64,000 bases of DNA, taken from positions 1 to 64,000 of the forward strand of contig NZ_WVHT01000011.1 in NCBI RefSeq assembly GCF_009834875.1. The letters are read 5' to 3'. Under the pieces are notes generated by a model, which saw nothing but the letters and a program-made list of their open reading frames with translations, was not told where the DNA came from and ran no database searches. Of this stretch, positions 21,292-55,361 are shown piece by piece; position 1 is the stretch's first letter, and the number at the start of each line of letters is the position of its first letter. Source of the stretch: Hufsiella arboris (lineage in GTDB: Bacteria; Bacteroidota; Bacteroidia; Sphingobacteriales; Sphingobacteriaceae). The translations under genes and the position numbers were made by a program.

Positions 21292-21323
21292 TTAACTGAA
21301 TCATTGTTAGCCCTTAACTTGTC

Positions 21324-23174: not shown

Positions 23175-23189
23175 GGGATCTGCCAGCAC

Positions 23190-23237
23190 TATAAAAAAAA
23201 ATAGCAAGTAACCCTCGCGGTACTTGCTATTCCTTTT
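23190..23237. terminator. Bidirectional rho-independent terminator
   Basis: ATAGCAAGTA and TACTTGCTAT form a 10-bp perfect stem (extended by CC/GG across one unpaired A) around a CTCGC loop. An A run precedes the stem and CCTTTTT follows, so it can act on both strands. It lies between convergent genes: the TPR kinase (+) and the AraC regulator (-). Confidence 0.8.
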
Positions 23238-23339
23238 TAATCATTAACAACAGAATTAGCGTATGAAGTTTACTGCTGATGAATCAAATTTACGTTGCTT
23301 CCCGGTGAATAAATGTGCGGTGATCACCAATTAACAAAT

Positions 23340-24218: not shown

Positions 24219-24223
24219 GCCGA

Positions 24224-24589: not shown

Positions 24590-24732
24590 GGCATTATGTC
24601 TTATCTTAAAACTGGGATAATTAGCGTCTTGGGAAAAGTTGCCATTATATATGCCATGGGATTGAAGACGGACTTAAAATGAGCAAATACAAACGGTAAG
24701 TAGTGTATCACAGATGTTTTTGCATGCCGTTA

Positions 24733-24805
24733 ATCGACGGAAAAATACCGTCTGTCGATGTTACTGCCGGAATGAGTATCTATCGGCGTTCCTTTCTTAT
24801 TTTTG
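24733..24805 (+). promoter_or_regulatory. Candidate LytTR-type operator and -7 element upstream of lytS-like gene
   Basis: The 28 bp at 24733-24760 (ATCGACGGAAAAATACC then GTCTGTCGATG) contain an ATCGAC/GTCGAT inverted repeat and match segments at 21230 and 29051. A perfect TATTTTTG -7 element lies at 24798-24805, 37 bp after the motif, about one helical turn further than in the other two copies. Transcription from it would begin at or next to the ATG at 24809, implying a leaderless mRNA. Confidence 0.45.
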
Positions 24806-24808
24806 GAA

Positions 24809-25900: not shown

Positions 25901-25901
25901 T

Positions 25902-26624
25902 ATGAAAATCAAAACGTTATTGGTTGACGACGAACCACACGCGCTGGAAGTGATCGAAAACTACCTCCAGAATTTCAGTGAACTTGAAATCGTCACAAAA
26001 TGTAGCAATGCGATACAGGCATTCCAGGTATTGCAGCAAACGCGTGTCGACCTGATGTTTTTAGACATCAAAATGCCTGGCTTATCGGGCACCGATTTGA
26101 TGCGAAGCCTGAAGCATCCGCCAAAGGTAATCTTTACAACTGCTTATCACGATTACGCGGTTGAGGGGTTCGATTTGAATGCCCTGGATTACCTGATGAA
26201 GCCTATCGCTTTCGATCGCTTTTTAAAAGCAATGGACAAAGTATTTGCCACATTCAGTGTAGCAAACAAACAGATAAGTATCGAGGAAAAACCGGCACTC
26301 TCCAATAAGGATGTGTTTCTTTACTTAAAGGTGGAGCGTAAAATGGTAAAGGTAAATGTCAATGATATCTACTGGATGGAAAGTCTGAAAGACTATATTA
26401 AAGTGGTTTTGAAAGACAAAGTGCTTATTTCAAAGCAGAAGATCAGCTTATTGGAAGAGCTGCTGCCGGAAGAAAAATTCGTACGGATCCATCGTTCGTT
26501 CATCGTTTCAATGGATAAAGTGGATAGCTATCATTCTTATTCTGTGGAGATCGGTGGTAAAGAACTGCCTATCGGAAGAAATTATAAAGCCGAATGCCAT
26601 CGCCGCTTTAAAATGGTTTATTAG
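25902..26624 (+). CDS. LytTR-type response regulator
   Basis: A 240-aa response regulator. The receiver domain (1-120) has the acidic pair D9/D10, phospho-acceptor D55 in LMFLDIKMPGLSG, the conserved T in IFTTAYHDYA and K in LMKPI. The LytTR DNA-binding domain occupies about 140-240 (FLYLKVERKMVKV, IYWMESLKDYIKVV, FVRIHRSFIVSMDKV). It begins one base after the LytS kinase gene. It is the only response regulator in the window and a plausible shared partner for the TPR kinase at 21324. The repeated motif at 21230, 24733 and 29051 is a candidate binding site. Confidence 0.95.
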   Translation: MKIKTLLVDDEPHALEVIENYLQNFSELEIVTKCSNAIQAFQVLQQTRVDLMFLDIKMPGLSGTDLMRSLKHPPKVIFTTAYHDYAVEGFDLNALDYLMKPIAFDRFLKAMDKVFATFSVANKQISIEEKPALSNKDVFLYLKVERKMVKVNVNDIYWMESLKDYIKVVLKDKVLISKQKISLLEELLPEEKFVRIHRSFIVSMDKVDSYHSYSVEIGGKELPIGRNYKAECHRRFKMVY

Positions 26625-30928: not shown

Positions 30929-33010
30929 ATGATCCAAATAAACTTACGCATTCTAATCCTTGTCCTTCTTTCAGCTATTGCTGTTAACGGGACAAGTTTT
31001 GCGCAAATAAAAAAAGATAAACTGCTTTTTGGTGTTGCTTATTACGATGAGTATATGCCATATGACCGGCTCGATAGTGACGTTTCAATGATGAAAGAAG
31101 CGGGTATCAATGTCGTGCGCATCGCCGAATCCACTTGGAGTACCATGGAGCCCCAGGACGGTGTTTTTGATTTCAGTCATATAGACAGAGTGCTTAACGC
31201 GATGAACAAAGCGGGTATAAGCGTAATTATCGGCACACCTACTTATGCCGTGCCGACCTGGCTGGTAAAAAAGTATCCTGATGTGTTGGCCATTACGCCG
31301 AAAGGCCCAAACCAATATGGGCCTCGTCAGAATATGGATATCTCAAACATTCATTTCCGCGAATATGCGGAAAGGGCAATCCGCAAAATGCTGGAGCACG
31401 TTAAAAATCATCCGGCGATAATCGGTTATCAAATCGACAATGAAACTAAGTCATATGGTACAAGCGGACCAAATGTACAATCGCAGTTTGTCGCTTATAT
31501 GAAAGAGCGATATCCTTCGCTGGATAGCCTGAATAAAATATTCGGCCTGGATTACTGGAGTAACCGGATCAATAACTGGAATGATTTCCCATCAGTCAAC
31601 GGAAGTATAAATGCTAGTTTGAATGCAGAGTTTGCCAAATTTCAACGCTCGCTGGTAACAGAATATCTTGGCTGGCAGGCCAAAATTGTGAGAGAATATA
31701 AAAAGCCGGAGCAGTTTGTGACACAAAATTTCGACTTCGACTGGAAAGGGTACTCTTACGGAATACAGCCGGAGGTGGATCATTTTGCAGCTGCCAAGGT
31801 CCTTGATATCGCAGGAGTGGATATTTATCACCCATCACAGGATAAACTTACAGGTGCAGAAATTTCTTTCGGCGGTGATATGGCCAGATCTATGAAGGGC
31901 GGACAAAACTACCTGGTGATTGAAACGGAGGCACAGGGGTTTCCGCAATGGGTTCCTTATCCGGGACAGTTAAGGTTGCAGGCATTCAGTCATCTGGCAT
32001 CGGGGGCCGACATGGTTTCATACTGGCACTGGCATTCAATACACAACTCGGCGGAGACTTATTGGAAAGGTTTGTTGAGCCATGATTTTCAGCCAAATCC
32101 TACTTACCAGGAGGCCAAAACTATTGGAGCTGATTTCCAGAAACTTAGTCCGCATCTGGCGAATTTGAAGAAGCAAAACCAGGTAGCGATACTCTTCAGT
32201 AACGAAGCACTTACCGCTTACAACTCGTTCGGACCAGGTACTTACAACAATGTTCTGCGGCCGATGTATGATTTGCTTTATAATATGAACGTCGGCGTCG
32301 ATTTCGTCGATCCTTCCAGTAAGGAGATTGAAAAATATAAACTCGCTATTGTGCCAGCATTGTATGCTGCACCCGACAGCCTGTTGCAGCGCTTAAATCG
32401 CTTTGTGAAAAATGGTGGCCATATCGTTTATACTTTCAAGAGCGGGTTTTCAGATGAGCACAACAAAGTAAGAACAACTATTCAGCCAGGCATTATCGGC
32501 GAAGCCTGTGGTATTCGCTACAGTGAGTTTACTGATCCGGGGAAGATCGGGCTCAAGAATGATCCTTTCCTGGTTGGTAAAGCGGATAATTATACCGAAA
32601 AATGGATGGAACTGATTGAGCCCACAACGGCTAAAGTACTGGCATATTACGATCATCCGGCTTGGGGAAAGTACGCGGCCGTTACCCGAAATAATTACGG
32701 CAAGGGCGTGGCAATTTATATTGGATGCGGTACCAGTACGGCTATAACAGAAAAGATACTGGAAACAGCAATTAAGAGCGCGGGACTATGGGGAAAAGAT
32801 CAAAGTCTAAGGTTTCCGTTGATTGTTAAATCCGGAATCAACCAGCAGGGAAAGGCAGTTCATTACTACTTCAACTATTCAGCTGAGCCAAGGACAATAA
32901 ATTATACGTATCAAAAGGGAATCGAACTGATCTCAGGAGGAGCCATAAGCGCTCAAAGTAAATTAACCTTGCCCGCCTGGGGTTTTCGTATCATCGAGGA
33001 ACAATGGTAG
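30929..33010 (+). CDS. GH42 beta-galactosidase
   Basis: A 693-aa secreted enzyme (signal peptide ending in TSFAQ). Domain order is typical of GH42: TIM barrel (30-400; FGVAYYDEYMPYDRLDSD, RIAESTWSTMEPQDG), a trimerisation-type domain (400-610; FKSGFSDEHNKV) and a small beta domain at the C-terminus. The acid/base is E172 in GYQIDNETKS and the probable nucleophile E332 in LVIETEAQGFPQW. It removes terminal beta-galactosyl residues from plant or microbial oligosaccharides. It opens the PUL: its own promoter and terminator isolate it, and the membrane regulator follows downstream. Confidence 0.95.
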   Translation: MIQINLRILILVLLSAIAVNGTSFAQIKKDKLLFGVAYYDEYMPYDRLDSDVSMMKEAGINVVRIAESTWSTMEPQDGVFDFSHIDRVLNAMNKAGISVIIGTPTYAVPTWLVKKYPDVLAITPKGPNQYGPRQNMDISNIHFREYAERAIRKMLEHVKNHPAIIGYQIDNETKSYGTSGPNVQSQFVAYMKERYPSLDSLNKIFGLDYWSNRINNWNDFPSVNGSINASLNAEFAKFQRSLVTEYLGWQAKIVREYKKPEQFVTQNFDFDWKGYSYGIQPEVDHFAAAKVLDIAGVDIYHPSQDKLTGAEISFGGDMARSMKGGQNYLVIETEAQGFPQWVPYPGQLRLQAFSHLASGADMVSYWHWHSIHNSAETYWKGLLSHDFQPNPTYQEAKTIGADFQKLSPHLANLKKQNQVAILFSNEALTAYNSFGPGTYNNVLRPMYDLLYNMNVGVDFVDPSSKEIEKYKLAIVPALYAAPDSLLQRLNRFVKNGGHIVYTFKSGFSDEHNKVRTTIQPGIIGEACGIRYSEFTDPGKIGLKNDPFLVGKADNYTEKWMELIEPTTAKVLAYYDHPAWGKYAAVTRNNYGKGVAIYIGCGTSTAITEKILETAIKSAGLWGKDQSLRFPLIVKSGINQQGKAVHYYFNYSAEPRTINYTYQKGIELISGGAISAQSKLTLPAWGFRIIEEQW

Positions 33011-33127: not shown

Positions 33128-33175
33128 GTTTATTTTTAGAGCATATAACCATTTTATTTTAAACCTGAATTTTAA

Positions 33176-33192
33176 CTTAATACTGAATTAAG
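33176..33192. promoter_or_regulatory. Short inverted repeat upstream of the regulator gene
   Basis: CTTAAT-ACTGA-ATTAAG is a perfect 6-bp inverted repeat about 30 bp before the ATG at 33223. A further TTAATG lies at about 33202. It could be an autoregulatory site since the TTAAT core recurs in the boxes upstream of GH3, GH43 and SusC, but the arrangement differs. Confidence 0.3.
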
Positions 33193-33222
33193 TACAAGGC
33201 TTAATGGGTAAGTTCTGAAATA

Positions 33223-35811
33223 ATGCGCCTTCCTGATCTTAAGTTGTTTATAACTGCTATACTAATATTTCTGTTCGCTGGAAACTCGAATGCGCAGTCT
33301 TATGGCCTTGCTTTTAACAGTTATGATGTAGTACAGGATAAGCGGACCTCACTTGATATAGATCTGGACAAACTAAACCGGGCGGGCCAGATCGAACTTG
33401 CATTCGATCTTTCTTTTCTGCCTAATCACTCAAATTATTTCGGTTATGTATTCCGTTTGATCGGTAATGAACAGCAAAATATCGATCTCGTGTACGACAA
33501 TCAATTTAGCAATCATCATTTTAAATTAGTTGTAGGCGAAAAGGTAAGTAACATTTCTTTTGATATTCCTGTCACCTGTCTGTTTTCTGAATGGAACAGG
33601 TTAATTATCAGTCTTGATGTTGATCACGATAGAATTTCTTTAAGCTCAGGTAAGATCAATCTTTCACAATCAGGACTTCATTTACAAAAAAGTAATACTT
33701 ATAAGCTTTTATTCGGTGCTAATAATTATAAACGGTATCAAACGACCGATGTTCCGCCGATGAAGCTGAAAGATATTCGTATCAGTTCAGGCGGTAAGCT
33801 TGTTTATGATTTTCCGCTTTCAGAAAGTAACGGCAATTTTTTGACGGACAAAATAAACCAGTCGAAAGCATCTGTCTCTAATCCGCTTTGGGTAAAGGCT
33901 GGTCATCAAAAATGGTTTCTTGAAAAAGAAGCAACAATAAATGGCGTTGTAAGTACTGCGTTCAACGCCGCAAAAGAGGAAATTTACTTTATTTCGCCTG
34001 ATTCGTTGAAAATTTACTCTGCCAGAGACGGGCGTTTTTTAACATCTGTTGCTTATAGATCAGGAACCCAGAAATTTATACCAGGTTCTCAGTCGCTATA
34101 CGGTGATGGCCAGCTTTACAGTATTTATACGGACATGAAGACGGTTGTTCCGTACAACTTTCAAAGCCGGGATTGGAACCAGTATTATAAAACTGTGGTC
34201 GATGCCACGAATTATGGCCACATTAACAAGTTTTATTCGGCCGCTGACAATTCGGTTTACATGATTGGAGGTTATGGCCAGTTCATCTATAAAGACAGTG
34301 TTCTGAAATATGACATAACAAAACAATACTGGCAAAATGTCCCTGTAAAAGGAGATGTTTTTACGCCACGTTATCTCGCCGGGCTCGGTACAACTGCTAA
34401 TGGCGATACAGCTTATATCATTGGTGGTTACGGCAGCGCGACCGGCAGGCAAATAGCTAATCCGCGCAATCTATATGATATTATGCGCTTCACAGTTAAG
34501 GATAGATCTTTTAAGAAGCTAGCGGAAATAAAGACACAAAATGAAGATTTCGTATTCGCCAATTCCCTGATTATTGATTCAAAACACAAAACCTATTACG
34601 GATTAATATTTCCTCAAAACAAGTATAAAACCTCGCTGCAGTTAATCAAGGGCTCGCTCATGTCACCTGATTACGAACTGCTTGGAGATAATATTCCATT
34701 TCTTTTCCATGATGTGGAATCGTACGTCGATTTTTTTTACTGCGCGCAAACGAAAAAGTTTTTTGCTGTCACCTTGCTAAAAGTGAAGAACCAAACTCAG
34801 GTTAAGATATTTTCGCTACTGGCGCCGCCCGAGCCGTTTGTCGTTACATCGATTGAAAATAAAATTTCCATTAGCTGGGTAATAGCAGGGACAGCAATCC
34901 TGCTAGCGGGTATTCTGTTGTTTTTTTATTTTAAACGGAAGCGAGTTAGAAAGAATTTTATACCTGAAAAGCCGCTTTCTGCCGAAATATTAGAAGTGTT
35001 AAATAAGCCAAGTTCCTATACACATTCGGAAAATCGCGTAAAATTTGAGTCGAATGACGAGGAATCAGCTGAAACGCAGCCGGTAAAAAGCTCGGTATTT
35101 CTTTTTGGCGATGTGCAGCTCTTCACTGCTAATGGAACAGACATCACCGGGAGCTTTACACCGCTTTTAAAGGAGCTCTTCGCGGTTATCCTGATTTATT
35201 CGGTTAAGTGGGGAAGGGGTGTCAGTTCCGAAAAGCTAAATGAAATTTTATGGTTTGATAAATCGGAGCAAAGTGCACGTAATAATCGATCGGTGAACAT
35301 TGCCAAGCTAAAATCGCTTTTGGACCAGTTTAACGGTAAATGTAACCTTGTTAAAAATTCGGGGAACTATAAAATTGAAGTTGACTACAGCGAAGTTTTT
35401 GTTGATTATCATAGCTTTTTGAATATTATTTCTTCAAAAAATAAGATCAGTAAGGAAAATGTCACACAGCTCACTCAGATAACACAGCGGGGTAATTTCC
35501 TTGCAAATATGGAATTCGAGTGGCTGGATATTTTCAAATCTGAGGTTTCAAATGAAGTAATTGACTACTACCTGGAAGCTGCAAGTTTAACAACCATTGC
35601 CTCTGATCCTGAATTTCTGATTAGGCTTGCCAATCATATTTTTTATGTCGACCCGGTTAATGAAGAGGCGATGAGGTTAAAATGTAAGGCACTCGTATTT
35701 CTCGGCAAACATTCACTGGCAAAAAGCACTTTTGAAAACTTCAACAAGGAATACCGCTTGATCTATGGTGAAAACTTTATGAAAGATTTCCACGCAGTGC
35801 TCGAGTATTAA
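33223..35811 (+). CDS. Membrane-spanning transcription regulator: LamG/kelch sensor with SARP-like output
   Basis: An 862-aa protein. After a signal peptide (ending in NSNAQ) residues about 26-230 look like a concanavalin/LamG-type domain (RLIISLDVDHDRISLSSG), and about 230-545 like a kelch beta-propeller (VYMIGGYGQFIYKDSVLKY, AYIIGGYGSATGRQ). A single membrane helix at about 550-570 (WVIAGTAILLAGILLFFYF) precedes a positive KRKRVRK stop. The cytoplasmic part has a winged helix (LKELFAVILIYSVKW, GVSSEKLNEILWF, ARNNRSVNIAKLKSLL) followed by about 120 aa of helices resembling a BTAD domain, as in SARP regulators. Placed between GH42 and GH3 with no other PUL regulator intact nearby, it is the best candidate activator of this locus. 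Sensing and DNA-binding are inferred. Confidence 0.75.
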   Translation: MRLPDLKLFITAILIFLFAGNSNAQSYGLAFNSYDVVQDKRTSLDIDLDKLNRAGQIELAFDLSFLPNHSNYFGYVFRLIGNEQQNIDLVYDNQFSNHHFKLVVGEKVSNISFDIPVTCLFSEWNRLIISLDVDHDRISLSSGKINLSQSGLHLQKSNTYKLLFGANNYKRYQTTDVPPMKLKDIRISSGGKLVYDFPLSESNGNFLTDKINQSKASVSNPLWVKAGHQKWFLEKEATINGVVSTAFNAAKEEIYFISPDSLKIYSARDGRFLTSVAYRSGTQKFIPGSQSLYGDGQLYSIYTDMKTVVPYNFQSRDWNQYYKTVVDATNYGHINKFYSAADNSVYMIGGYGQFIYKDSVLKYDITKQYWQNVPVKGDVFTPRYLAGLGTTANGDTAYIIGGYGSATGRQIANPRNLYDIMRFTVKDRSFKKLAEIKTQNEDFVFANSLIIDSKHKTYYGLIFPQNKYKTSLQLIKGSLMSPDYELLGDNIPFLFHDVESYVDFFYCAQTKKFFAVTLLKVKNQTQVKIFSLLAPPEPFVVTSIENKISISWVIAGTAILLAGILLFFYFKRKRVRKNFIPEKPLSAEILEVLNKPSSYTHSENRVKFESNDEESAETQPVKSSVFLFGDVQLFTANGTDITGSFTPLLKELFAVILIYSVKWGRGVSSEKLNEILWFDKSEQSARNNRSVNIAKLKSLLDQFNGKCNLVKNSGNYKIEVDYSEVFVDYHSFLNIISSKNKISKENVTQLTQITQRGNFLANMEFEWLDIFKSEVSNEVIDYYLEAASLTTIASDPEFLIRLANHIFYVDPVNEEAMRLKCKALVFLGKHSLAKSTFENFNKEYRLIYGENFMKDFHAVLEY

Positions 35812-35976: not shown

Positions 35977-36035
35977 ATTAATGCCTCATTAATTCTTTGT
36001 TAAGCGGAATAATTTATTTGCTGAAGTATTTAACC
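35977..36035 (+). promoter_or_regulatory. Operator-like box upstream of GH3 (third, diverged copy)
   Basis: ATTAATG at 35977 and ATTAAT at 35988 lie one helical turn apart. From 35988, ATTAATTCTTTGTTAAG parallels the first 17 positions of the 54-bp elements at 38359 and 39550, and GTATTTAACC at 36026 parallels their GTATTTAGC/GTAATTAGC with a one-base shift. The ATG of GH3 is at 36064. Confidence 0.5.
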
Positions 36036-36063: not shown

Positions 36064-38325
36064 ATGATCCTCTTTAAAGGCAGGTACCTGAGCCTCATTA
36101 CTATTTCCTGTGTTTTGCTTTTCGCATTTAAAAATGAAGAGAGAACTTCTCCTTATCCATATAAAAATCCAAAACTTTCAGTCGACGAGCGGGTGAAGGA
36201 TTTACTCTCCAGAATGACATTAAAGGAGAAAATCCTGCAGCTCGATATGTTCTGGGGAAAAGAGGTCGCTGATTCTACGGGACACGAAACGAAGGAATAT
36301 TCAGCAAAAAAAACCGCCGCAATTTTAGGTGATACAGGCATCGGATCGGTTCATGACCTTTATCCTCTAACAGCCGATATCACTAACAAGATTCAGAAAT
36401 ATGCACTGGAAAATACCCGTCTAGGTATTCCCGTCTTATTTATTGAAGAGGGGCTGCATGGATACAGTAGTAAAGGAAGCACGTCATTTCCAATCCCATT
36501 GCAAATGTCTGCCGCGTGGGATACAGCTTTGGTTTATAAAGCTGGCCGTGTTATCGCTACCGAAACGCGTGCTCATGGCGTGAACATGATATTAGGTCCG
36601 GTGCTTTGTTTACCGCACGATCCGCGATGGGGCCGGGTGGAAGAAACTTTTGGGGAAGATCCTTACCTCGATGCTTTGAACGGCGTGGCGATGGTTAAGG
36701 GTTTGCAGGGAAAACGGCTGAGCGACAACGACGCCGTGGTTGCAGAACCTAAGCATTTTTCTGTGCATGGTATTCCCGAGGCCGGAAGTAATACTGCCCC
36801 GGTAAATATCGGCGAACGGGAGGAACGTTCTACTTATCTCTACGTGTTTGAAAGAGCTGTGAAGGAAGGCGGGGCCAAAGGGATCATGGCAGCTTACAGC
36901 GAAATTGATGGCATCCCCTGTGTGGATAACAAATGGTTGCTGACCGATGTGTTACGCAAAGAATGGGGTTTTGATGGGTTTGTATTGTCTGATTTAGGAG
37001 CAATAAAAATGTCGCTGGAAAGCCACGCTATAGCCAGCAGCGTGAGCGACGCTCTTGCTCAAACTTTTAATGCCGGACTGAATATGCAGTTTTATGATTT
37101 CGATCATAAGTTATTCATGACATCGGTCGAGCAGGCAATAAAAGACAAAAAACTGTCGGAAGCCCAGCTCAATAAAACAGTTGGCGAAGTGCTTCGGGTC
37201 AAATTTTTACTGGGCCTTTTTGATAATCCCTATATACTGAATGACCGGGTTTCAAAAGTGTTTCACTCGTCTGAAAGCCAGGATCTGGCCCTAAAAATTG
37301 CTCAGGAGAGTATTTGTCTGCTCAAAAACGACGATGTGTTGCCGCTTAAGGCCAATCAATCGATCGCCGTTTTGGGACCTTTGGCTAAAAGTACCTACCT
37401 GGGGGGCTATTCAAATACGGAAGATAAAGCCATATCAGTACTTGAGGGTTTGCAGCAACGTGCAGGCAGTTCTGCAAAGATCAGTTTTGAACCCGGCTAT
37501 TCGATGGAGAAAGATCAGGGTGATTTACTGCAAAAAGCAGTCAACCTGGCGAAGGCATCAGATGTCGCCATCGTTGTTTTAGGCGAAGATCTTTCAATAG
37601 TTGGTGAAGGGAAAGATCGTGCTCACCTGGATCTCGACGAAAATCAGATGGAACTTGTTCGCGCGGTAAAAGCGACAGCAAAACCGGTTGTTGTGGTGCT
37701 TGAAAACGGCCGGCCATTGACAATCAACTGGATTGCGAAAAATATTCCCGCTATTGTTGAAAGCTGGTTTGGTGGCGAGAAAAACGGGCTGGCAATTGCC
37801 GACGTGCTATTGGGAAATGTTAATCCTTCAGGCAAACTTCCAATGACCTTCCCGCGATCCCTTGGCCAGGTCCCATTTTACTACAATCATAAACCAACTT
37901 CCTATCACCGTTATGTTGATGAGCAAAGTACGCCGTTATATGCGTTCGGGCATGGTCTGAGCTATACGAAGTTTGAATATAGCGACTTGTCATTCGATAA
38001 ACCAAAGATTGCAGCAGATGAAACTATCGAAGTGAGTTTGAATGTTAAAAATACTGGTCCCGTCGCCGGTGCCGAGGTAGTGCAGGTTTACGTCAGAGAC
38101 GTGGTTTCCAGTGTCACAACACCCGTGATGGCATTGAAAGGGTTTCATAAGGTTATGCTCAAGCCGGGCGAAACGTCAGTAATCAGATTTAAGCTGGGGC
38201 CTGAGCATTTATCGTTATGGAATAAATCAATGAAACGGGTAGTCGAGCCGGGAGAATTTAAGATAATGGTTGGAAGCGCTTCCGATGATATCCGGCTCAA
38301 TGGAAGTTTCCAGGTAATAAAATAA
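36064..38325 (+). CDS. GH3 glycoside hydrolase (beta-glucosidase/xylosidase type)
   Basis: A 753-aa secreted enzyme with a short N-terminal signal segment. The GH3 N-domain contains LFIEEGLHGY, GPVLCLPHDPRWGRVEETFGED-like features and KHFSVHG; the nucleophile is D310 in GFDGFVLSDLGAI. The GH3 C-domain (KIAQESICLLKNDDVLPLK, AIVVLGEDLSIVGEGKDR) and a C-terminal fibronectin-III-like domain (VSLNVKNTGPVAGAEVVQVY) complete the usual three-domain layout. It hydrolyses terminal beta-linked glucose or xylose, possibly in the periplasm. It is the first gene of the apparent ATTAATG-box regulon. Confidence 0.95.
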   Translation: MILFKGRYLSLITISCVLLFAFKNEERTSPYPYKNPKLSVDERVKDLLSRMTLKEKILQLDMFWGKEVADSTGHETKEYSAKKTAAILGDTGIGSVHDLYPLTADITNKIQKYALENTRLGIPVLFIEEGLHGYSSKGSTSFPIPLQMSAAWDTALVYKAGRVIATETRAHGVNMILGPVLCLPHDPRWGRVEETFGEDPYLDALNGVAMVKGLQGKRLSDNDAVVAEPKHFSVHGIPEAGSNTAPVNIGEREERSTYLYVFERAVKEGGAKGIMAAYSEIDGIPCVDNKWLLTDVLRKEWGFDGFVLSDLGAIKMSLESHAIASSVSDALAQTFNAGLNMQFYDFDHKLFMTSVEQAIKDKKLSEAQLNKTVGEVLRVKFLLGLFDNPYILNDRVSKVFHSSESQDLALKIAQESICLLKNDDVLPLKANQSIAVLGPLAKSTYLGGYSNTEDKAISVLEGLQQRAGSSAKISFEPGYSMEKDQGDLLQKAVNLAKASDVAIVVLGEDLSIVGEGKDRAHLDLDENQMELVRAVKATAKPVVVVLENGRPLTINWIAKNIPAIVESWFGGEKNGLAIADVLLGNVNPSGKLPMTFPRSLGQVPFYYNHKPTSYHRYVDEQSTPLYAFGHGLSYTKFEYSDLSFDKPKIAADETIEVSLNVKNTGPVAGAEVVQVYVRDVVSSVTTPVMALKGFHKVMLKPGETSVIRFKLGPEHLSLWNKSMKRVVEPGEFKIMVGSASDDIRLNGSFQVIK

Positions 38326-38358: not shown

Positions 38359-38412
38359 ATTAATGTTTTGTTAGGCTCTCATTAATGCTCAGACGGTAAT
38401 TAGCACTAACAA
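38359..38412 (+). promoter_or_regulatory. 54-bp operator/promoter element upstream of GH43
   Basis: Two ATTAATG boxes (38359-38365 and 38381-38387) lie exactly 22 bp apart, two helical turns. The second continues as CTCAG and then GTAATTAGCA, a likely -7 variant. The whole 54 bp aligns without gaps to 39550-39603 with 44 identical bases, while flanking sequence does not align. It lies 28 bp before the ATG at 38440. Confidence 0.65.
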
Positions 38413-38439: not shown

Positions 38440-39387
38440 ATGAAATTTTTTAAACGCATCACTTTTAGTTGTGCCGCTTTAATGGCTGCTTTGCTGATAA
38501 CCGGGAATTCGTATTCTCAAAAAAATCCTTTTATAACATCAATGTATACAGCCGATCCTTCGGCGCATGTTTGGGCCGACGGCCGCTTATATGTCTATGC
38601 ATCGCATGATGTTGCTCCGCCTCGTGGCTGCGACCTGATGGATCGTTACCATGTTTTTTCTACCGACGACATGATTCACTGGAAAGATCACGGTGAAATA
38701 CTCAATTCAGGCCAGGTTCCCTGGGGCAGAAAAGAAGGTGGCTTTATGTGGGCGCCGGATTGCGCTTACAAAAACGGTACTTACTATTACTATTTTCCAC
38801 ATCCAAGCGATACCAAATGGAACGATACCTGGAAAATCGGAGTAGCTACCAGCAAAAAACCGGCTAGTGATTTTAAAGTACAGGGCTACATAAAAGGACT
38901 CGAATCAATGATCGATCCTACAGTTTTTATTGACGATGACGGCCAGGCATATTTCTACTATGGTGGCGGCGGAACCTGCAAAGGCGGTAAGCTGAAAGAT
39001 AATATGACCGAGATCGATGGCGATATGAAAAAAATGGAAGGGTTGGAAGATTTCCACGAAGCAACCTGGGTACATAAAAGAAAGGGAATTTACTATCTGT
39101 CATATTCAGATAATCACGATGAGGGCGACAAACATAACCGCATGCGCTATGCTACGAGCAATAATCCGTTAGGCCCCTGGAAATACCAGGGAATTTACAT
39201 GGATCCTACCGACAGCTATACCAATCATGGATCGATCGTGGAATATAAAGGGCAGTGGTATTCCTTTTATCATAATAGTTCCTTGTCGGGAAACGACTGG
39301 CTGCGCTCGATCTGCGTGGATAAATTATACTTCAACGAAGACGGAACGATACAAAAAGTAGTACAAACAAACGGCCTGAGTAAATGA
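38440..39387 (+). CDS. GH43-family glycosidase
   Basis: A 315-aa secreted enzyme (signal peptide ending in NSYSQ). It is a five-bladed GH43 propeller with all three catalytic carboxylates: general base D39 in YTADPSAHVWADG, pKa modulator D159 in SMIDPTVFIDDDG and acid E207 in FHEATWVHKRKG. There is no accessory CBM. Typical activities are alpha-L-arabinofuranosidase, beta-xylosidase or exo-beta-galactosidase; the subfamily cannot be set by eye. It has its own operator element and is followed by a hairpin before the SusC operon. Confidence 0.93.
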   Translation: MKFFKRITFSCAALMAALLITGNSYSQKNPFITSMYTADPSAHVWADGRLYVYASHDVAPPRGCDLMDRYHVFSTDDMIHWKDHGEILNSGQVPWGRKEGGFMWAPDCAYKNGTYYYYFPHPSDTKWNDTWKIGVATSKKPASDFKVQGYIKGLESMIDPTVFIDDDGQAYFYYGGGGTCKGGKLKDNMTEIDGDMKKMEGLEDFHEATWVHKRKGIYYLSYSDNHDEGDKHNRMRYATSNNPLGPWKYQGIYMDPTDSYTNHGSIVEYKGQWYSFYHNSSLSGNDWLRSICVDKLYFNEDGTIQKVVQTNGLSK

Positions 39388-39549: not shown

Positions 39550-39603
39550 TATTAATGCTTTTTTAGGATTTCATTAATGCTCAGCACGTATTTAGCAGTA
39601 CCA
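39550..39603 (+). promoter_or_regulatory. 54-bp operator/promoter element upstream of the PUL operon
   Basis: ATTAATG at 39550-39556 and at 39572-39578 repeat the 22-bp spacing found at 38359. CTCAGCACGTATTTAGCA follows, with GTATTTAGC as the likely -7 variant. The stretch from 39604 to the ATG at 39739 would form an untranslated leader of roughly 130 nt with no recognised riboswitch; the rest of the GH43-SusC gap holds only the hairpin at 39464. Confidence 0.65.
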
Positions 39604-39738: not shown

Positions 39739-42700
39739 ATGAAGATTAAATTTTTACAAAGAAATGGGAGATACCTGCTTAAGAGAACGCTTTGCAATAG
39801 CTTTTTCCTAAGTTCCCTCTTTATTGTTTCTGCTAACGCTTATGCAGCTTCACCCCGCAATGCTGCAATAGAAAGCACATTCCAGAAACAGCCGATAACG
39901 GTAACCGGTACCGTTGTTGATGACAAGGACGAGGTAATGCCGGGTGTAAGTATCCGTGTTAAAGGTACAAGCACAACTGCCGCAACCGATGCCGCTGGTA
40001 AATTTTCCATCGCGGTGCCGGGTAACGATGCCATACTTCAGGTTTCCTTTATCGGCTTTGCCACACAGGAAATAATTGTCGGCAATAACAAAACTTTTCG
40101 CATTAAACTGGCCAGTGATACCAAGGGCCTGAACGAAGTTGTCGTAGTAGGTTATGGTACACAAAGAAAGTTTACTGTTACCGGTTCTGTCGCGACGCTT
40201 AAAAGCGAGGATATCGTGATAACCAAAAATGAAAACACGGTAAATATGCTTACCGGAAAAATGCCGGGGTTACGCGTAATGCAGCGCACATCAGAGCCGG
40301 GAGGCTACGAGAATGCCTTTGATATCCGTGGCTTCGGAAAACCGCTGATCGTGATTGACAACGTGCCGCGTGATGGCGGTGACTTTTCAAGAATGGACCC
40401 GAACGAAATCGAAAACGTTACAATCCTCAAAGATGCCTCGGCAGCGATTTATGGTGTACGCGCAGCTAATGGCGTTATCCTGATCACGACGAAAAAAGGC
40501 AATAAAACCGGCAAATATGATATAAACTATTCCGTGAATCAGGGATGGCAGCAGTTTTTGGGAATGCCTGATGGCGTGAACGCTGTTGACTATATGCTGC
40601 TGACCAACGAAAAAAACAAACGTTCGTTCGCAAATAACTTCCTGGGTAACTCTGAGCCGACTTTCTCTTATGGAGATATTGAACCATGGCTGAACGGAAC
40701 GTTTCCCTCAGCCGACTGGATTGGTGCGGCGTTTAGAAACACTTCGCCACAGATTCAGCATAATCTCAATGTGAATGGCGGTACCGACAAGGCAAACCTT
40801 TTTTTAAATCTTGGTTATATGAACCAGGATGGTTTGATGAAAAGCGGCGACCTGAATTATAACAGGTGGAATTTCCGGGCTAACGCGTCAGCAACAATTG
40901 TTAAAGGCCTAAAGGCAGACATGTTGCTTTCCGGATTCCAGGATCAAAAGAACCAGCCTTACCAGGATTTATGGACGATTTTTAAATATACATGGAATCA
41001 GATTCCGCGTAACCAGATCTACGCAAACAACAATCCGCTGTATCCTAACGTAATGCCGGATAATGCTAACCCGGTAATGATCACCGACGGAGACTTTGTC
41101 GGTACCAAGCAGTTTAACAACAAAAACTTCCAGGGGCAGGCAAGCCTGGATTATGAAATTCCAGGAACGAAAGGTTTAAAAGCGCGCGCGATGTACAACT
41201 ACGGCTATACTTCCGGCGATAACACCGAACACAGGAAGGATTACGATCTGTACACCTATGATGCCGGAACCGACATTTACATGCCTTCAAATGTAAACGG
41301 TCCGACGCGGATACTTCGCTATTTTGGAAATACCACGTCAAATCTCGCGCAGTTATCATTGAACTATACCCATTCGTTTTGGGGTGCTCATAACGTCTCC
41401 GGCTTATTGCTTTACGAATACAGCCATTCTAAAGGTGATAACTTCTTTGCGCAACGGAACATCAATTTGCCGATCGATTATTTGTTTGGTGGAGAGGATG
41501 CCAACCAGTTGGGCAGCATGAATACAGGCGGCTTATTTGAAGTGGCGACGGAAGCTGTTTTGGGACGCTTTAACTACGATTACAAGGGGAAATATTTATT
41601 TGAATTCCTTTTCAGGGAAGACGGATCAAATAAATTTAAACCCGGGCCGAGCCAATGGGGCTTTTTCCCGGCTGTTTCTGCAGGATGGCGAATTAGTGAG
41701 GAGAAGTTCATGCACAACCTGACAACAAGCGGTACCATTACAAATTTGAAACTGCGCCTATCTTATGGTAAAACCGGTGATGATAGCGCCACAGCATTTC
41801 AATATATTTCCGGATTCAAGTATCCAACCATTAATCCGAATGATAACTCCATCTACGGCTATATTTTTGGCGGCAATTTTACCAACGGCGCGGCCTCGAG
41901 CGGGGTGGTAAACCCGGATCTTACCTGGTTTACAGCTACCACGAAAAATATCGGACTAGATTTCGGGCTGTTCAAAGGCAAGCTCGACGGGTCGATCGAT
42001 GTATTCAGAAGAGACCGCGACGGCCTTTTGGCGAGAAGAGATGTTGCCGTTCCCGGAACTGTCGGCGCAGATCTTCCGCAGGAAAACCTGAACAGCGACC
42101 GGACACAAGGTATCGATCTGATACTGACACACCGCAATAAACTCGGAAAGTTCGGTTACAGCGTTAGCGGCAACATTGGTACCACTCGCTCTGAAAACCG
42201 CGATGTTATTCAAACCATGGCCGGCAATCAATATGATAACTGGAGAAATTCACAGCAAAATCGCTATACCAGTATTTGGTGGGGCAAAGTTTATGAGGGG
42301 CAGTTTACAAACTACGACCAGATCTATAAATATCCTGTAAATACCGGCGGCGGCAATAACAATACAATTCCAGGCGATTATTATTACCAGGACTGGAATG
42401 AAGATGGCGTTATTGACGGCAAGGATGATCAGCCGATCGCTACAAAGGATATTCCGCTGGTAAACTTCGGCTTAAACCTCGGACTAAACTTTAAAGGCTT
42501 CGACCTGAACGTACTTTTCCAGGGAGCAACAGGTTTCTATGTTCAGTATGCTGAGCAATATGCGGAACCCCTGATGTATAACCGCAGCTCGTTAACCCGC
42601 TTTTTGGATAGCTGGCATACCGTCAATCCGAATGATAATGTTTTCGACCCAAATACGCAGTGGGTTCCGGGCTATTATCCGGCAATGGGTTCACAGTACG

Positions 42701-42975
42701 CACAAGGCACGAAAGCTGTTCAGGATGCTACTTATCTCCGCATCAAAACGCTTGAGTTGGGTTATTCGCTTCCGCAAACTTTACTGAAGCATGTTGGAGT
42801 GAAAAGGTTGCGGGTTTACGTCAACAGCTATAATCTGGCTACGTTTACGGGACTTAAGAATTACGATCCTGAACACCCTGGCGATGTTCCCGACACCGGC
42901 TTCGACCAGTCGTTAGGGGGTTATAAATACCCGCTCAACAGAACCTTTAACCTGGGCGCCAATATTTCCTTTTAA
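39739..42975 (+). CDS. SusC/RagA-family TonB-linked outer-membrane transporter (PUL)
   Basis: A 1078-aa transporter: signal peptide (ending in SANAYA), carboxypeptidase-regulatory-like domain at about 50-125 (VTGTVVDDKDEVMPGVSIRV), LNEVVVVGYGTQ just before the plug, plug motifs (MLTGKMPGLRVMQR, VTILKDASAAIYGVRAANG) and a long barrel ending in FNLGANISF. It imports oligosaccharides released at the surface, working with the SusD lipoprotein encoded 4 bp downstream. It is the first gene of the main PUL operon and lies behind a 54-bp operator element. Confidence 0.96.
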   Translation: MKIKFLQRNGRYLLKRTLCNSFFLSSLFIVSANAYAASPRNAAIESTFQKQPITVTGTVVDDKDEVMPGVSIRVKGTSTTAATDAAGKFSIAVPGNDAILQVSFIGFATQEIIVGNNKTFRIKLASDTKGLNEVVVVGYGTQRKFTVTGSVATLKSEDIVITKNENTVNMLTGKMPGLRVMQRTSEPGGYENAFDIRGFGKPLIVIDNVPRDGGDFSRMDPNEIENVTILKDASAAIYGVRAANGVILITTKKGNKTGKYDINYSVNQGWQQFLGMPDGVNAVDYMLLTNEKNKRSFANNFLGNSEPTFSYGDIEPWLNGTFPSADWIGAAFRNTSPQIQHNLNVNGGTDKANLFLNLGYMNQDGLMKSGDLNYNRWNFRANASATIVKGLKADMLLSGFQDQKNQPYQDLWTIFKYTWNQIPRNQIYANNNPLYPNVMPDNANPVMITDGDFVGTKQFNNKNFQGQASLDYEIPGTKGLKARAMYNYGYTSGDNTEHRKDYDLYTYDAGTDIYMPSNVNGPTRILRYFGNTTSNLAQLSLNYTHSFWGAHNVSGLLLYEYSHSKGDNFFAQRNINLPIDYLFGGEDANQLGSMNTGGLFEVATEAVLGRFNYDYKGKYLFEFLFREDGSNKFKPGPSQWGFFPAVSAGWRISEEKFMHNLTTSGTITNLKLRLSYGKTGDDSATAFQYISGFKYPTINPNDNSIYGYIFGGNFTNGAASSGVVNPDLTWFTATTKNIGLDFGLFKGKLDGSIDVFRRDRDGLLARRDVAVPGTVGADLPQENLNSDRTQGIDLILTHRNKLGKFGYSVSGNIGTTRSENRDVIQTMAGNQYDNWRNSQQNRYTSIWWGKVYEGQFTNYDQIYKYPVNTGGGNNNTIPGDYYYQDWNEDGVIDGKDDQPIATKDIPLVNFGLNLGLNFKGFDLNVLFQGATGFYVQYAEQYAEPLMYNRSSLTRFLDSWHTVNPNDNVFDPNTQWVPGYYPAMGSQYAQGTKAVQDATYLRIKTLELGYSLPQTLLKHVGVKRLRVYVNSYNLATFTGLKNYDPEHPGDVPDTGFDQSLGGYKYPLNRTFNLGANISF

Positions 42976-42979: not shown

Positions 42980-44827
42980 TTGAAGATGAAAAGTATCAGA
43001 AAACTGATTATAGCAATTGGCGTGGGAGTGAGCTTGTTAACTTCCTGCCAGAAACTCGATATAAAGCCAACTAATATACTTACCGATGATGTAATATTTG
43101 GCGGAGAAGGAGGCGTGAACTCTTATCTGGCGGATGTTTACCGGAAATTGCCGATAGAAGATTTCACTTACCGGCCAACCGGGCGGGATGGCAGATGGGG
43201 CTTTAACCTTCACCACGAGTGGGAGCATTTCTGGAATGCAGGTTCAGCAACCGGCGAAATGGTAGGCCCTTACGGAGGTATGGATATTGGCGGCGGCTGT
43301 GCATACTGGCCGTACAGCGACATCCGCGCGGTAAATTATTTAATTGAAACCCTGCCTAAATATTCGGCAAATTTCACTGGAAACCGCGTCAATGAAATTC
43401 TGGGCGAAGCCTATTTTCTTCGTGCTTATTACTATTTCGCTTTAGCGAAGCGCTATGGCGGCGTTCCGATCATTACCTCGGTTCAAAATTACCCGGAGCA
43501 AAGTATAGAAGAACTGCAGGTTCATCGCAGCAAAGAGGATGAGGTTTGGGAGTTTATCGGCAAAGATCTGGATCAGGCCTATTCCATGATGCCCGAAACA
43601 AGTCTGAGGGCGCGGGCTAATAAATACGTCGCTGCAGCCCTTAAGTCGAGAGCCATGTTATACGCCGGATCTATTGCAAAATACGGATCGGTAAACTTTG
43701 TCGATGGCGACGCGAAGGCACAGGGATATGTGGGCATTCCGGCAGATAAGGCCGCCGCTTATTTCCAGCAGGCATGGGATGCCGCGAAACTGCTCGATGG
43801 CCATTATTCCCTGTACCAGAAAAATCCGGACAAGGAACTGAACTACGCTGATTTGTTCCTGGATCACGACAGCCCGGAAAATATCCTGGTAAGGGATTAT
43901 TCGATAACAAGCAACACGGCGCATAGCTGGGATGCGACGTTTTCTCCAAGGTTTATGACTGCCGATGCGTTGTCAAGGGCATATCCGACACTGGAGTTTG
44001 TTCAGCGTTTTGTACAGCTCCCGGTAACTAATGCCGATGGAACACCGCGGCGGTTTGATAATCTGGCCGATCTGAAACAAGGACTTGAGCCTCGACTATT
44101 GGCAACTGTTTATTTCCCCGGCGCGACACTGCGGGGCCGGCAGTTTGATATGCAGCGCGGCATTTACCCAACCTTTTCAGGAACAGCCGCTGCTGAAGTT
44201 GCCAAGCAACCGGATCAGCGTAATCGCATCGTAGCGTCCGATCCCAATACCTTATACCAGGGATTGCCTGTGATCGGGCAAACGGGTATTCGTCCTCCAG
44301 GAAGTTCTGACGAAGTGTCGCGTACAGGATTTTACGTAAGGAAATATATTGATTATAAAAAACCTCAGAATGAGTGCGGCTTATTTCAAAGTACACAAAG
44401 CTGGATCGAGTTCCGTTACGCTGAAATTTTGCTTAACAGGGCTGAAGCAGCTACAGAGCTTGGGAAAGCCGATGATGCGCTGTTTTGCCTTAACCAACTA
44501 CGAAGTAGAGCTGGTGCTACAGTGATGAGTATGGCAGATGTTACGATTGATAATGTACGTAATGAACGCTGTAAAGAGCTTGCTTTCGAGAATCATTACT
44601 GGTGGGATATCCGCAGATGGCGTATAGCCGATCAGCTGCTTGATAATGCGCGGTTCAGGGGCCTGATGCCTTACTATGTGCTCAACGAAAAGAAGTACAT
44701 CTTTCTTAACGAGCCGGAGGTTTTCGAACGGAATTATTTCTTCGACAAGAAGTTTTATTACGAACCGATTCCAGGCGGCGAATTGGGTAAAAATCCCAAT
44801 CTGTACCCGAACAACCCAAATTACTAA
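42980..44827 (+). CDS. SusD/RagB-family glycan-binding lipoprotein (PUL)
   Basis: A 615-aa surface lipoprotein, lipobox LLTSCQKLDIKPTN. Features of the RagB/SusD family include FLRAYYYFALAKRYGGVPII, RSKEDEVWEFIGKDLDQA, and the C-terminal FRYAEILLNRAEAATELGK and FENHYWWDIRRWRIADQ. It caps the adjacent SusC barrel and captures glycan chains. Only 4 bp separate the two genes. The C-terminus ends in NPNLYPNNPNY, typical of full-length family members. Confidence 0.96.
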   Translation: MKMKSIRKLIIAIGVGVSLLTSCQKLDIKPTNILTDDVIFGGEGGVNSYLADVYRKLPIEDFTYRPTGRDGRWGFNLHHEWEHFWNAGSATGEMVGPYGGMDIGGGCAYWPYSDIRAVNYLIETLPKYSANFTGNRVNEILGEAYFLRAYYYFALAKRYGGVPIITSVQNYPEQSIEELQVHRSKEDEVWEFIGKDLDQAYSMMPETSLRARANKYVAAALKSRAMLYAGSIAKYGSVNFVDGDAKAQGYVGIPADKAAAYFQQAWDAAKLLDGHYSLYQKNPDKELNYADLFLDHDSPENILVRDYSITSNTAHSWDATFSPRFMTADALSRAYPTLEFVQRFVQLPVTNADGTPRRFDNLADLKQGLEPRLLATVYFPGATLRGRQFDMQRGIYPTFSGTAAAEVAKQPDQRNRIVASDPNTLYQGLPVIGQTGIRPPGSSDEVSRTGFYVRKYIDYKKPQNECGLFQSTQSWIEFRYAEILLNRAEAATELGKADDALFCLNQLRSRAGATVMSMADVTIDNVRNERCKELAFENHYWWDIRRWRIADQLLDNARFRGLMPYYVLNEKKYIFLNEPEVFERNYFFDKKFYYEPIPGGELGKNPNLYPNNPNY

Positions 44828-44837: not shown

Positions 44838-45560
44838 TTGAATGAAATGAAAAGATTAGTTAGCAAAATCCTGTTAGGAATAACATTACTGGCGGGATCA
44901 GCTTGTACCAAAATAGATAATTACGACGGCCCAAACGCTTCATTTGAAGGAAAATTGGTCGACGCCACAACGGGGGGTAATTTTCAAACATCGACCGGAA
45001 GTGTGCGCGTAAGGCTTGAGCAGATCAGTTGGAGCGATACGCCGTCGCCGCAGGATATTCCGAGCAAGTTTGACGGGACCTTTAAAGACAGTAAGTTATT
45101 TAAAGGGAAATACCGGATCACACCAATCGGTGGTGCTTTCTGGCCGATTTACGAACCGGTCGAAATGGACATCAACGGAAAAAGCTCGCACGATTTCGAG
45201 TTGACGCCCTACGTCGTTATAAAAAATCTTACTTCGACACTGAACGGCAACGAGCTCACACTCAATTTTAATATCGATGCGCCGGTTACAGCCGGGATGC
45301 CGGGAGTGATTGATGTACAGCCCTACGTTAACACGACTGAACTGGTTGGCGCCGGAGCTTCTATTTATGATTATTCGGATTTGATGAAGGTTACTCTGAA
45401 TAAAGATTGGGCTGCTCTGACTGATGCTGATAAGAACATGACGCTGAAAATACCCGGACTGTTGCCCGGCAGGACGTTTTATGTACGCGTTGGCGTTCGA
45501 TTAAACGACAGTTTCAAAAGCTCAAATTTTTCAGAAATCATCGAAGTAAAGGTTCCCTGA
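44838..45560 (+). CDS. DUF3823 domain-containing lipoprotein
   Basis: A 240-aa lipoprotein (lipobox LLAGSACTKID). The opening YDGPNASFEGKLVDATTG is the hallmark of DUF3823, with the N-terminal beta-sandwich (FKDSKLFKGKYRITP, GAFWPIYEPVEMDI) and a C-terminal Ig-like domain from about 125. Such proteins regularly follow susD genes and are thought to be surface glycan-binding accessory proteins. It starts 10 bp after SusD and is part of the same operon. Confidence 0.88.
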   Translation: MNEMKRLVSKILLGITLLAGSACTKIDNYDGPNASFEGKLVDATTGGNFQTSTGSVRVRLEQISWSDTPSPQDIPSKFDGTFKDSKLFKGKYRITPIGGAFWPIYEPVEMDINGKSSHDFELTPYVVIKNLTSTLNGNELTLNFNIDAPVTAGMPGVIDVQPYVNTTELVGAGASIYDYSDLMKVTLNKDWAALTDADKNMTLKIPGLLPGRTFYVRVGVRLNDSFKSSNFSEIIEVKVP

Positions 45561-46945: not shown

Positions 46946-46978
46946 ACAAACCAATTATAAACTTAAAAGATAAAGGAC

Positions 46979-48649: not shown

Positions 48650-48704
48650 TTTTTACACAGATGCCGGGAATCATCCTGGCATCTGCTTTTTGCGACCTCC
48701 GGAT

Positions 48705-49970: not shown

Positions 49971-50007
49971 GATAGACTGAAAAATTCCGGTACGTAGTTT
50001 GAATTTA

Positions 50008-52494
50008 ATGGCCAAAAACCTGCTTCTTTTAATTTCTTTCGTGTTTACGCTGCCTCTAAAAACATTTTCGCAGGCCGGCACCGATCGCATTGAACCTGCC
50101 ACAAAAAGGAATAGCAAGATCACAGCATCCTGGGATGACCGTGCGACATTTTCGGGAACAGGTAGGAAACCTGACGGAAACCACCTGTTATGGTATCGTC
50201 AACCCGCGAAGATCTGGGAAGAAGCCTTGCCTTTGGGTAACGGCAGAATCGGGGCCATGATGTTCGGCGGCGTTTCTGACGAGCGGATCCAGCTGAATGA
50301 AAGCACCTTGTGGGATGGACAGCCATTAAATCCCAATAATCCCAATGCGCTTAAAGTACTTCCGGTAGTAAGGAAACTGTTATTTGAAAATAGGAATAAT
50401 GAAGCGGTTGCACTCGCTGAAAAGAATATGCTGGGCCGGCCTCCCGGTGTCAGGCCATACCAGTCGCTGGGCGAACTTTGGTTTGATACACCGCAAACAA
50501 GGGCGGAAAATTATGTACGGTCGCTCGATCTTTCACAAGCTGTAACAAGGATAAAGTTTCGTTCCGGCAACACCGGATTCCGGCGAGAAGCATTTTCATC
50601 CTTAACAGACGGCGTTCTTGTTATTCATCTGACAGCTGATAAACCCGGGTTAATAAGCTTGAACCTGATGTTTAAACGCGAAGAAAATGCAGTTTGTGAG
50701 AATTATTCCGCTGATAAATCGTCATTGATTCTCCATGGGCAATTGCCTGCCAGGGATTCGACGGGAAAGCAGGTTGGTCTGCATTTTGCAGCCCGGCTGA
50801 AGGCCGTCAATAAAGGAGGAACAATTTCTGTTTCCAACGGAATTATGAGCATCAAAAATGCTGATTCGGTTACTTTGCTTATTGCAGCAGCCACTGATTA
50901 TCCCGGCTTTTCCGGATCGGCGGACTGGGGCAAAAAGCCCGGTCCCAACCCGGTAGTTCTCTGTAATAAAGCAATAACATCAGCCGGCAAAATTTCTTAC
51001 CAAGATCTGAAAGCACGGCATATCTCTGCTTACCGGAAATTATTCGATCGCGTGGATCTTTTGATCAGCGATCCGACAGATACCGACAGTTTGCTGCCCA
51101 CCGATCAGCAACTGGCGCAGGCAGCACGGGCAGGCACCCCAAGTCCTAAGCTGGTGGAAGATTACTTCCAGTTTGGCAGATACCTGCTGATCTCATCGTC
51201 GCAGCCTGGCGGAATGCCGGCAAATCTGCAGGGTTTATGGGCTTGGCAAATGAACCCGCCCTGGAATGCCGATTTCCATACAAATATTAATGTACAAATG
51301 AACTATTGGCCGGCGGAGATCACCAACTTACCGGAAATGCATTTGCCATTGTTCGAACTGGAAAAGGCGTTAGTTAAGCCGGGGTCGGTCACGGCAAAAA
51401 CTTTATATGGTGCAAGAGGATGGGTTGTTCATCACTTAACGGATGCCTGGGGTTATACCGCTCCGGCGGACGGCCCGCAGGGGATCTGGCCTATGGGAGC
51501 GGCATGGCTGGTACAGCATGCCTGGGAACATTATAATTTCAGTGGAGATAAGGCGTTCCTGCAAAAAACCGGTTACCCCTTGATGAAAGGTGCTGCTGAA
51601 TTTATGATGGACTTTCTCGTCGAAGCGCCTGCCGGTACCGCTTACGCCGGCAAGCTGGTTACCAATCCTTCCTACTCGCCTGAAAATGCATTTATTTTAC
51701 CTGACGGAACGCAATCGGTTTTTACATATGGCGCGACTATGGACCTGGAAATTATTCATGACCTGCTGACCAACTGCATCGCGGCTGCGAAAGTGCTTCA
51801 TGTGGACGATAATTTTAGGGATGAATGTGTGAAAACGTTATCCCGGCTGGCCCGAATTCGTATCAGCCGGGCTACCGGTCGCATTATGGAATGGGCAGAG
51901 GACTATAAAGAGGCTGAGCCGCATCACCGGCATACCTCGCATCTTTTCGGCCTGTATCCCGGAAACCAGATAACCATGTACGGAACACCTGAACTGGCTG
52001 CCGCAGCACGCAAAACATTGGAAGCCCGCGGCGATGACGGCACCGGGTGGAGCCTGGCCTGGAAGATCAACATGTGGAACCGCCTGCTGGACGGAGACCA
52101 TGCTTACCGGCTGCTGTCGGTTTTGTTAGCCACCAAAACACTCCCAAACCTTTTCGATAATCATCCGCCTTTTCAAATTGATGGAAATTTCGGCGCGACG
52201 GTGGCAATTGCCGAGATGTTCGTTCAGAGTCAGCTATCCACTGCGGACGGAAGTTTTGAAATTCAACTTCTTCCTGCACTGCCTTCATCCTGGAAGAATG
52301 GCTTTGTAAAAGGACTTCGCGCTCGCGGTGGATTTACCTTGGACGTTGAATGGAAGGACGGGAAATTAGTATCAGCTCAAATAGTATCTGCACTTGGAAA
52401 ACCGCTGCATCTACGTTCGGGGTCCCTGACAGCGGTATACCCCACTAAAACCGGCCAGGTGGTTAAAATTACTCCAGAACTTAAAACAGAATAA
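50008..52494 (+). CDS. GH95-family glycosidase (alpha-L-fucosidase/galactosidase)
   Basis: An 828-aa secreted enzyme; the ATG at 50008 starts a normal signal peptide (ending in KTFSQ). GH95 signatures are clear: [60 protein letters not shown] and [18 protein letters not shown]. The family uses an inverting mechanism with carboxylates in an (alpha/alpha)6 barrel. Members cleave terminal alpha-1,2-fucose or alpha-L-galactose. It follows the second GH71/99-like gene by 37 bp, so it belongs to the same operon. Confidence 0.93.
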
Positions 52495-52513
52495 AACTCA
52501 AAATTCAATATTG

Positions 52514-55358: not shown

Positions 55359-55361
55359 GAG

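Follow-up and report, generated by a model that had tools for sequence, protein, structure and literature searches.

How is a PUL controlled when it lacks the regulators that usually accompany such loci? Reviews of PUL regulation describe HTCS, SusR-like proteins and ECF/anti-sigma systems (PMC3878776; PMC10766802). The question is raised by a GH42-GH92 gene cluster in a 64,000-nucleotide stretch of Hufsiella arboris DNA (the window; Table 1). The original prediction assigned control of this cluster to a transmembrane protein encoded between GH42 and GH3, the only intact regulator of the PUL. Both neighbours were confirmed by Pfam, a Pfam scan of the GH42-GH92 cluster showed no further gene with a recognisable regulator domain, and the PUL yielded no gene recognised as anti-sigma, sigma, FecR-like or protease. 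The open reading frame is present as a single copy in the 4.8-Mb genome. We propose, with a probability of about 0.8, that its product sits in the inner membrane and, as a one-component regulator, activates transcription of the PUL around it, that it acts through a SARP domain on triples of heptamers and is triggered by glycan.

Table 1. Features of the regulator, the PUL and its putative promoters, numbered from the first nucleotide of the window; residues are those of the regulator.
Feature	Coordinates	Strand	Basis
GH42 beta-galactosidase	30929..33010	+	Pfam 1.6e-82
Weak operator-like triple just upstream of regulator	33165..33193	+	Score 16.7; no clear -7 box follows
Transmembrane SARP-type regulator, 862 aa, ATG start	33223..35811	+	Open reading frame
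Signal peptide, residues 1-25 (MRLPDLKLFITAILIFLFAGNSNAQ/S)	33223..33297	+	Read from sequence
N-terminal all-beta domain, residues 29-219, family not assigned	33307..33879	+	AF2 secondary structure
Kelch-type beta-propeller, residues about 232-533	33916..34821	+	Pfam kelch, PDB profile search, Foldseek
Single transmembrane helix, residues 550-574, then KRKRVRK	34870..34944	+	AF2 model and transmembrane prediction
Disordered cytoplasmic linker, residues 575-618	34945..35076	+	pLDDT <50 at 574-618
OmpR/SARP-type winged helix, residues 624-720	35092..35382	+	AF2, hhalign, fold search
Recognition helix, residues 682-703, containing ARNNRSVNIAKLK	35266..35331	+	Model; nearly invariant in close group
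BTAD-like helical domain, residues 728-861	35404..35805	+	AF2, hhalign, fold search
Putative operator 1 (GH3 promoter): ATTAATG-CCTC-ATTAATT-CTTT-GTTAAGC	35977..36005	+	Sequence, repeat score
Predicted -7 box, GH3 promoter (TATTTGC), 9 bp past operator 1	36015..36021	+	Sequence; family profile
GH3	36064..38325	+	Pfam 4e-62
Putative operator 2 (GH43 promoter): ATTAATG-TTTT-GTTAGGC-TCTC-ATTAATG	38359..38387	+	Sequence, repeat score
Predicted -7 box, GH43 promoter (TAATTAGC), 9 bp past operator 2	38397..38404	+	Sequence; family profile
GH43	38440..39387	+	Pfam 9e-42
Putative operator 3 (susC promoter): ATTAATG-CTTT-TTTAGGA-TTTC-ATTAATG	39551..39579	+	Sequence, repeat score
Predicted -7 box, susC promoter (TATTTAGC), 9 bp past operator 3	39589..39596	+	Sequence; family profile
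SusC-like TonB-dependent receptor, STN domain not found	39739..42975	+	Domain search
SusD	42980..44827	+	Pfam
DUF3823 protein	44838..45560	+	Pfam
GH95	49999..52494	+	Pfam
GH92	52511..54745	+	Pfam

Three further proteins of the PUL (442, 556 and 451 residues; window positions 45617-49970) match no Pfam family significantly; the first and third have relatives in other loci of the family. The region 16330-26624 contains a second susCD pair (SusD-like_2), separate from the PUL of the regulator, in the vicinity of an AraC-type regulator, a TPR histidine kinase and a LytS/LytTR pair. A convergent cluster on the reverse strand (54765-59577), encoding a sugar transferase, a PIG-L deacetylase, an epimerase, a glycosyltransferase and an amine oxidoreductase, looks like a locus for surface polysaccharide synthesis. 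Porph_ging and weak PNGase F-II N-terminal matches are found in the protein encoded at 14375-15142, behind a gene for an outer-membrane beta-barrel protein.

The full-length AF2 model of the regulator (mean pLDDT 87.7) is consistent with a predicted topology in which a periplasmic sensor is followed by a transmembrane helix and a cytoplasmic, C-terminal DNA-binding domain. The position of the helix agrees with the single span that had been expected at about residues 550-570, and the arrangement recurs among 141 homologues, in which the N-terminus is hydrophobic in 117, exactly one transmembrane segment is predicted past residue 70 in 132, and the charge after that segment is more positive than before it in 128. 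The kelch propeller of the sensor, likewise part of the original prediction, is recognised by Kelch_6 (1.5e-5) and Kelch_4 (7e-5), both of which reach their own Pfam cut-offs, by broader kelch models at 3e-8, and by Foldseek, where the full AF2 model matches kelch proteins with a best E of about 3e-11. The LamG label given to the N-terminal domain was not confirmed; residues 29-219 are modelled as all-beta, yet neither Pfam nor the PDB profile search returned a significant match to LamG or to a family of any kind.

What the ectodomain senses can be read in two ways. It could be argued that the sensor responds to a protein partner, such as SusD, the DUF3823 protein or another envelope protein, or to the state of the envelope, and not to glycan directly, the promoters still being regulated. 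Kelch propellers commonly bind proteins, the Foldseek matches are largely protein-binding kelch domains, and DUF3823 adjoins SusD in both subgroups of homologues. The periplasmic domains of HTCS and SusR, however, bind sugars (PMC3878776), and W124, W223, W231 and W318, the aromatic residues of the ectodomain that are invariant across homologues, could serve in sugar stacking. By analogy with SusR and HTCS direct glycan sensing by the regulator is plausible, and we regard the sensing of a protein or of the envelope as a credible alternative of clearly less than even likelihood.

By profile and modelled fold, the output domain of the regulator is a SARP domain. Modelled alone, the C-terminal part (pLDDT 93.8) consists of two strands, three helices and a wing, followed by a helical repeat, and its matches in the PDB at E<0.001 comprise only six chains, all of them from EmbR (2fez, 2ff4) or AfsR (8hvr, 8k60). 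A profile of 43 homologues was compared by hhalign with eight Bacteroidota SARP/BTAD domains found via Pfam PF03704; the two profiles align end to end (E 9.4e-21 over 236 columns), with both the winged helix and the BTAD covered. These results bear out the SARP-like output with a BTAD-like tail that had been suggested, and the structure predicted for residues 620-735, on which that suggestion had been staked, does contain the winged helix. To single-sequence searches the relationship is nearly invisible. The window protein itself has no Pfam BTAD match, the homologue L067 reaches 3.8e-4, just below the cut-off, and a profile of the C-terminal domain compared with the PDB by sequence alone found no SARP, whereas the fold search does. 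NCBIfam gave no family in the proteins scanned and, because their output domain is named at cut-off by no Pfam or NCBIfam model, the homologue genes are likely to be annotated only as kelch or hypothetical proteins.

The junction between sensor and output domain bears on how a signal would cross the membrane. In regulated intramembrane proteolysis the sensor would trigger cleavage in or near the transmembrane helix, freeing the SARP domain as a soluble activator. The single helix, the disordered linker of about 45 residues and the independently folded DNA-binding domain that follows would suit such a release, and the SARP domains of Streptomyces are soluble and monomeric until bound to DNA (PMC10936776). 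Among the genes of the PUL, however, none was recognised as encoding a protease. Tethered wHTH activators of the CadC type, moreover, work without release. We consider proteolytic release unlikely and favour a regulator that stays in the membrane, in which the signal would be passed by induced assembly or by a conformational change of the tethered protein.

The ATTAATG boxes of the window, whose promoters the regulator had been predicted to control, are direct repeats in a fixed register, comprising three heptamers with 4-bp spacers and hence an 11-bp period. SARP operators, by the published rule, consist of direct repeats spaced by 11 or 22 bp, and 8 bp separate the 3' repeat from the -10 element (PMC10936776); the PimR operator contains three heptamers with 4-nt spacers (PMC5930380). 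The putative operators of the window share with those of SARPs the tandem repeats of 11- or 22-bp period close upstream of a -10/-7 element, and with that of PimR the three heptamers and 4-bp spacers; the published 8 bp to the -10 element compares with 9 bp to the predicted -7 box at the window promoters. Because this layout is the same as the published SARP/PimR arrangement, class-II-like activation by tethered SARP domains is, by analogy, the best reading. It could also be proposed that the regulator is a repressor of the PUL and that the signal lifts repression. The operators are close to the promoter, with nothing more specific in favour of this view, whereas they end 9 bp upstream of the -7 box, in the class-II-like position of a SARP activator (PMC10936776), do not overlap the predicted start, and are paired with a protein that retains the BTAD tail; repression is thus very improbable.

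Within the 4.8-Mb genome the exact 22-bp pair has two matches, at the GH43 and susC operators, and the triple pattern has one, at the GH3 operator; a loose TTAA-triple search of the same genome gave 90 matches, too close to the 72 of the control to be informative. Neither GH42 nor the genes behind DUF3823 possess a separate operator, which counts against the proposed model; their transcription would depend on read-through or on a different promoter. The weak triple in front of the regulator gene makes autoregulation possible, though uncertain.

Of 251 genomes of the same family, 66 contain relatives of the regulator. An alignment query of genome contigs recovered 319 relatives, where a single-sequence scan recovered none. 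The named records include Mucilaginibacter, Pedobacter, Dyadobacter, Spirosoma, Larkinella, Sphingobacterium, Parapedobacter, Niastella, Ferruginibacter and Paraflavitalea. Two groups are apparent among the homologues, one close (32-56% identity) and one distant (21-29%), and both are linked to PULs, the point at which the original prediction could have failed: 130 of 137 loci have a susC or GH gene beside the homologue (108/112 close and 22/25 distant loci, counting SusC and six GH families within 8 kb), and in many loci susC is the next gene after the regulator. It should be emphasized that the neighbour labels come from home-made HMMs, checked in part against Pfam, and that these counts, and several of the percentages, are drawn from related genomes and are not independent. 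Two homologues (L065:9065-11084 and L206:2-2238) are seemingly split into two reading frames by a frameshift or sequencing error, and two loci contain two regulator copies each, in tandem in L145 (7339-9909 and 9977-12550) and at 4294-6873 and 15322-17961 in L040.

The repeats recur with these homologues. In 110 of 114 close-homologue loci an ATTAAT-type repeat with period 11, and no other, lies upstream of genes. When all 5-mers were scanned at all spacings in the intergenic DNA of the close loci, TTAAT at 11 bp ranked first (158 pairs versus a mean of 15.7 at other spacings), with a further strong peak at 22 bp, and every one of the 68 distinct ATTAAT pairs at 11 or 22 bp falls between genes. 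A triple scoring at least 17 at period 11 is present in 152 of 644 non-redundant upstream regions, compared with at most 25 at the other periods (7 to 17) and 4.6 expected from shuffles. The heptamers ascribed to the SARP domain have the form (A/G)TTAATN, with 4-bp spacers. In the averaged profile, which was aligned on the repeats alone, a -7-like element (T-A/T-N-T-T-T-G) emerged unsought about 9 bp past the third heptamer. The genes behind the operators (n=57) include 12 for SusC, 11 for GH92, 7 for GH3, 6 for GH95 and 4 for GH99. Across the 251 genomes 21 of 97 triple matches are located within 30 kb of a regulator gene, where 0.15 would be expected, and a 10-bp spacing pattern, used as a negative control in the same genomes, gave 0 of 43; the 62 of the 97 that fall in genomes with no detected close homologue are as expected of an AT-rich pattern.

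The ATTAAT repeats might, nevertheless, be sites of another regulator, such as an AraC or response regulator encoded at a distance, of which the SARP-type protein is a mere frequent neighbour. Indeed the operators do not always adjoin the regulator gene, some being several kb away, and some have no detected close homologue. The period and layout match those of SARP operators, however, the window PUL contains no other regulator domain that was found, and the heptamer and its period shift together with the recognition helix between subgroups. This helix reads N-N-R-S-V-N-I-A-K-L-K in the close group and N-I/S-R/K-G-V-T-I-N-H-L-R in the distant one, beside which the repeats are TTAACCC with a period of 12 bp, unusual among SARPs, or in some loci 11. 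In the distant loci L067-L090 these repeats lie between the regulator and the adjacent operon, with 11 bp in L083. Of the 25 distant loci, 18 have a TTAACCC-type pair adjoining the regulator, and of the 114 close loci none does; for the ATTAAT pair the counts are 1 of 25 and 46 of 114, respectively. This co-variation is the best evidence, drawn from sequence comparison, that the regulator itself reads the repeats, and we hold it highly improbable that another protein does so. That the regulator is their binding partner we infer from co-occurrence, and it is in this form, SARP-type 11-bp direct repeats found together with the regulator, that its predicted control of the ATTAATG-box promoters is supported.

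How does this protein relate to known systems? SARPs are known as soluble activators of antibiotic clusters in Actinobacteria, binding DNA as side-by-side dimers in contact with RNA polymerase. With AfsR, EmbR, PimR, ActII-ORF4 and DnrI the regulator shares the OmpR-type winged helix and BTAD, alike in fold and profile. In contrast with these SARPs, which are soluble proteins of Actinobacteria with an N-terminal SARP domain and antibiotic or cell-wall genes as targets, its SARP domain is C-terminal, is preceded by a signal peptide and transmembrane helix that anchor it behind a periplasmic sensor, and has PUL genes as predicted targets. ToxR and CadC resemble it as single-span, one-component regulators with an OmpR-like winged helix, but their domain order is the reverse. 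In the regulator the sensor, with a signal peptide, is N-terminal, the DNA-binding domain is C-terminal and a BTAD is present (the CadC/ToxR family is described in PMC5430869).

Among PUL regulators, HTCS also combine a large periplasmic sensor, PUL linkage and DNA binding in one chain, but the regulator has no histidine kinase, receiver or AraC-type domain (Pfam, E<=1). ECF sigma/anti-sigma control likewise signals across the membrane to PUL promoters; here, however, the SusC of the PUL has no STN domain and none of the genes of such a system was recognised. SusR of Bacteroides joins a sensor in the periplasm to a DNA-binding domain in the cytoplasm (PMC3878776), is similarly a one-component membrane protein with that domain at its C-terminus, and activates susCD-type operons, like the PUL targets proposed for the regulator. 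The DNA-binding domain of SusR is reportedly unlike any other known, and its predicted sites pair two boxes at a distance of 67 or 77 bp (PMC3878776), which is not the arrangement of the window operators. By that description of SusR, the regulator is set apart by its SARP domain and by three heptamers at an 11-bp period. The view that the layout lies outside HTCS, SusR and ECF systems stands for HTCS and for ECF; from SusR the regulator differs in its operator, but the topology is shared with SusR. Similarly, of the claim to an undescribed class of PUL regulator, the SARP output, the operator code and the kelch sensor are new, while the transmembrane one-component principle is known from SusR (PMC3878776). 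Our searches of the open-licence literature turned up no paper on a transmembrane PUL regulator of the SARP type. The regulator, a SARP by domain and SusR-like in layout by topology, appears to be a combination not previously described, and apparently represents a fourth class, transmembrane, SARP-type and one-component, beside HTCS, SusR and ECF/anti-sigma.

In the mechanism that we favour, the all-beta domain and the kelch propeller would together form the periplasmic sensor, coupled through one transmembrane helix and the flexible linker to the cytoplasmic SARP domain. On sensing a glycan breakdown product, the SARP domain would bind the three tandem heptamers of the GH3, GH43 and susC promoters and probably recruit RNA polymerase, as AfsR does. 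A more detailed version, in which three tethered copies would occupy the tandem heptamers with neither phosphorylation nor proteolysis, the operator code having changed alongside the recognition helix (ATTAATN at 11 bp versus TTAACCC at 12 bp) and the fourth class extending through several Bacteroidota families, is tentative, falling a little short of even odds.

This study extends the setting in which SARP domains are met, placing a SARP module, with SARP promoter geometry, at the output end of a membrane-spanning protein that probably senses nutrients, in Bacteroidota such as Mucilaginibacter, Pedobacter, Dyadobacter and Spirosoma. The readable operator would permit regulon prediction where, as in the window, no HTCS, SusR or ECF gene can be recognised adjacent to a PUL, and the regulator family offers a small, directly testable one-component switch.
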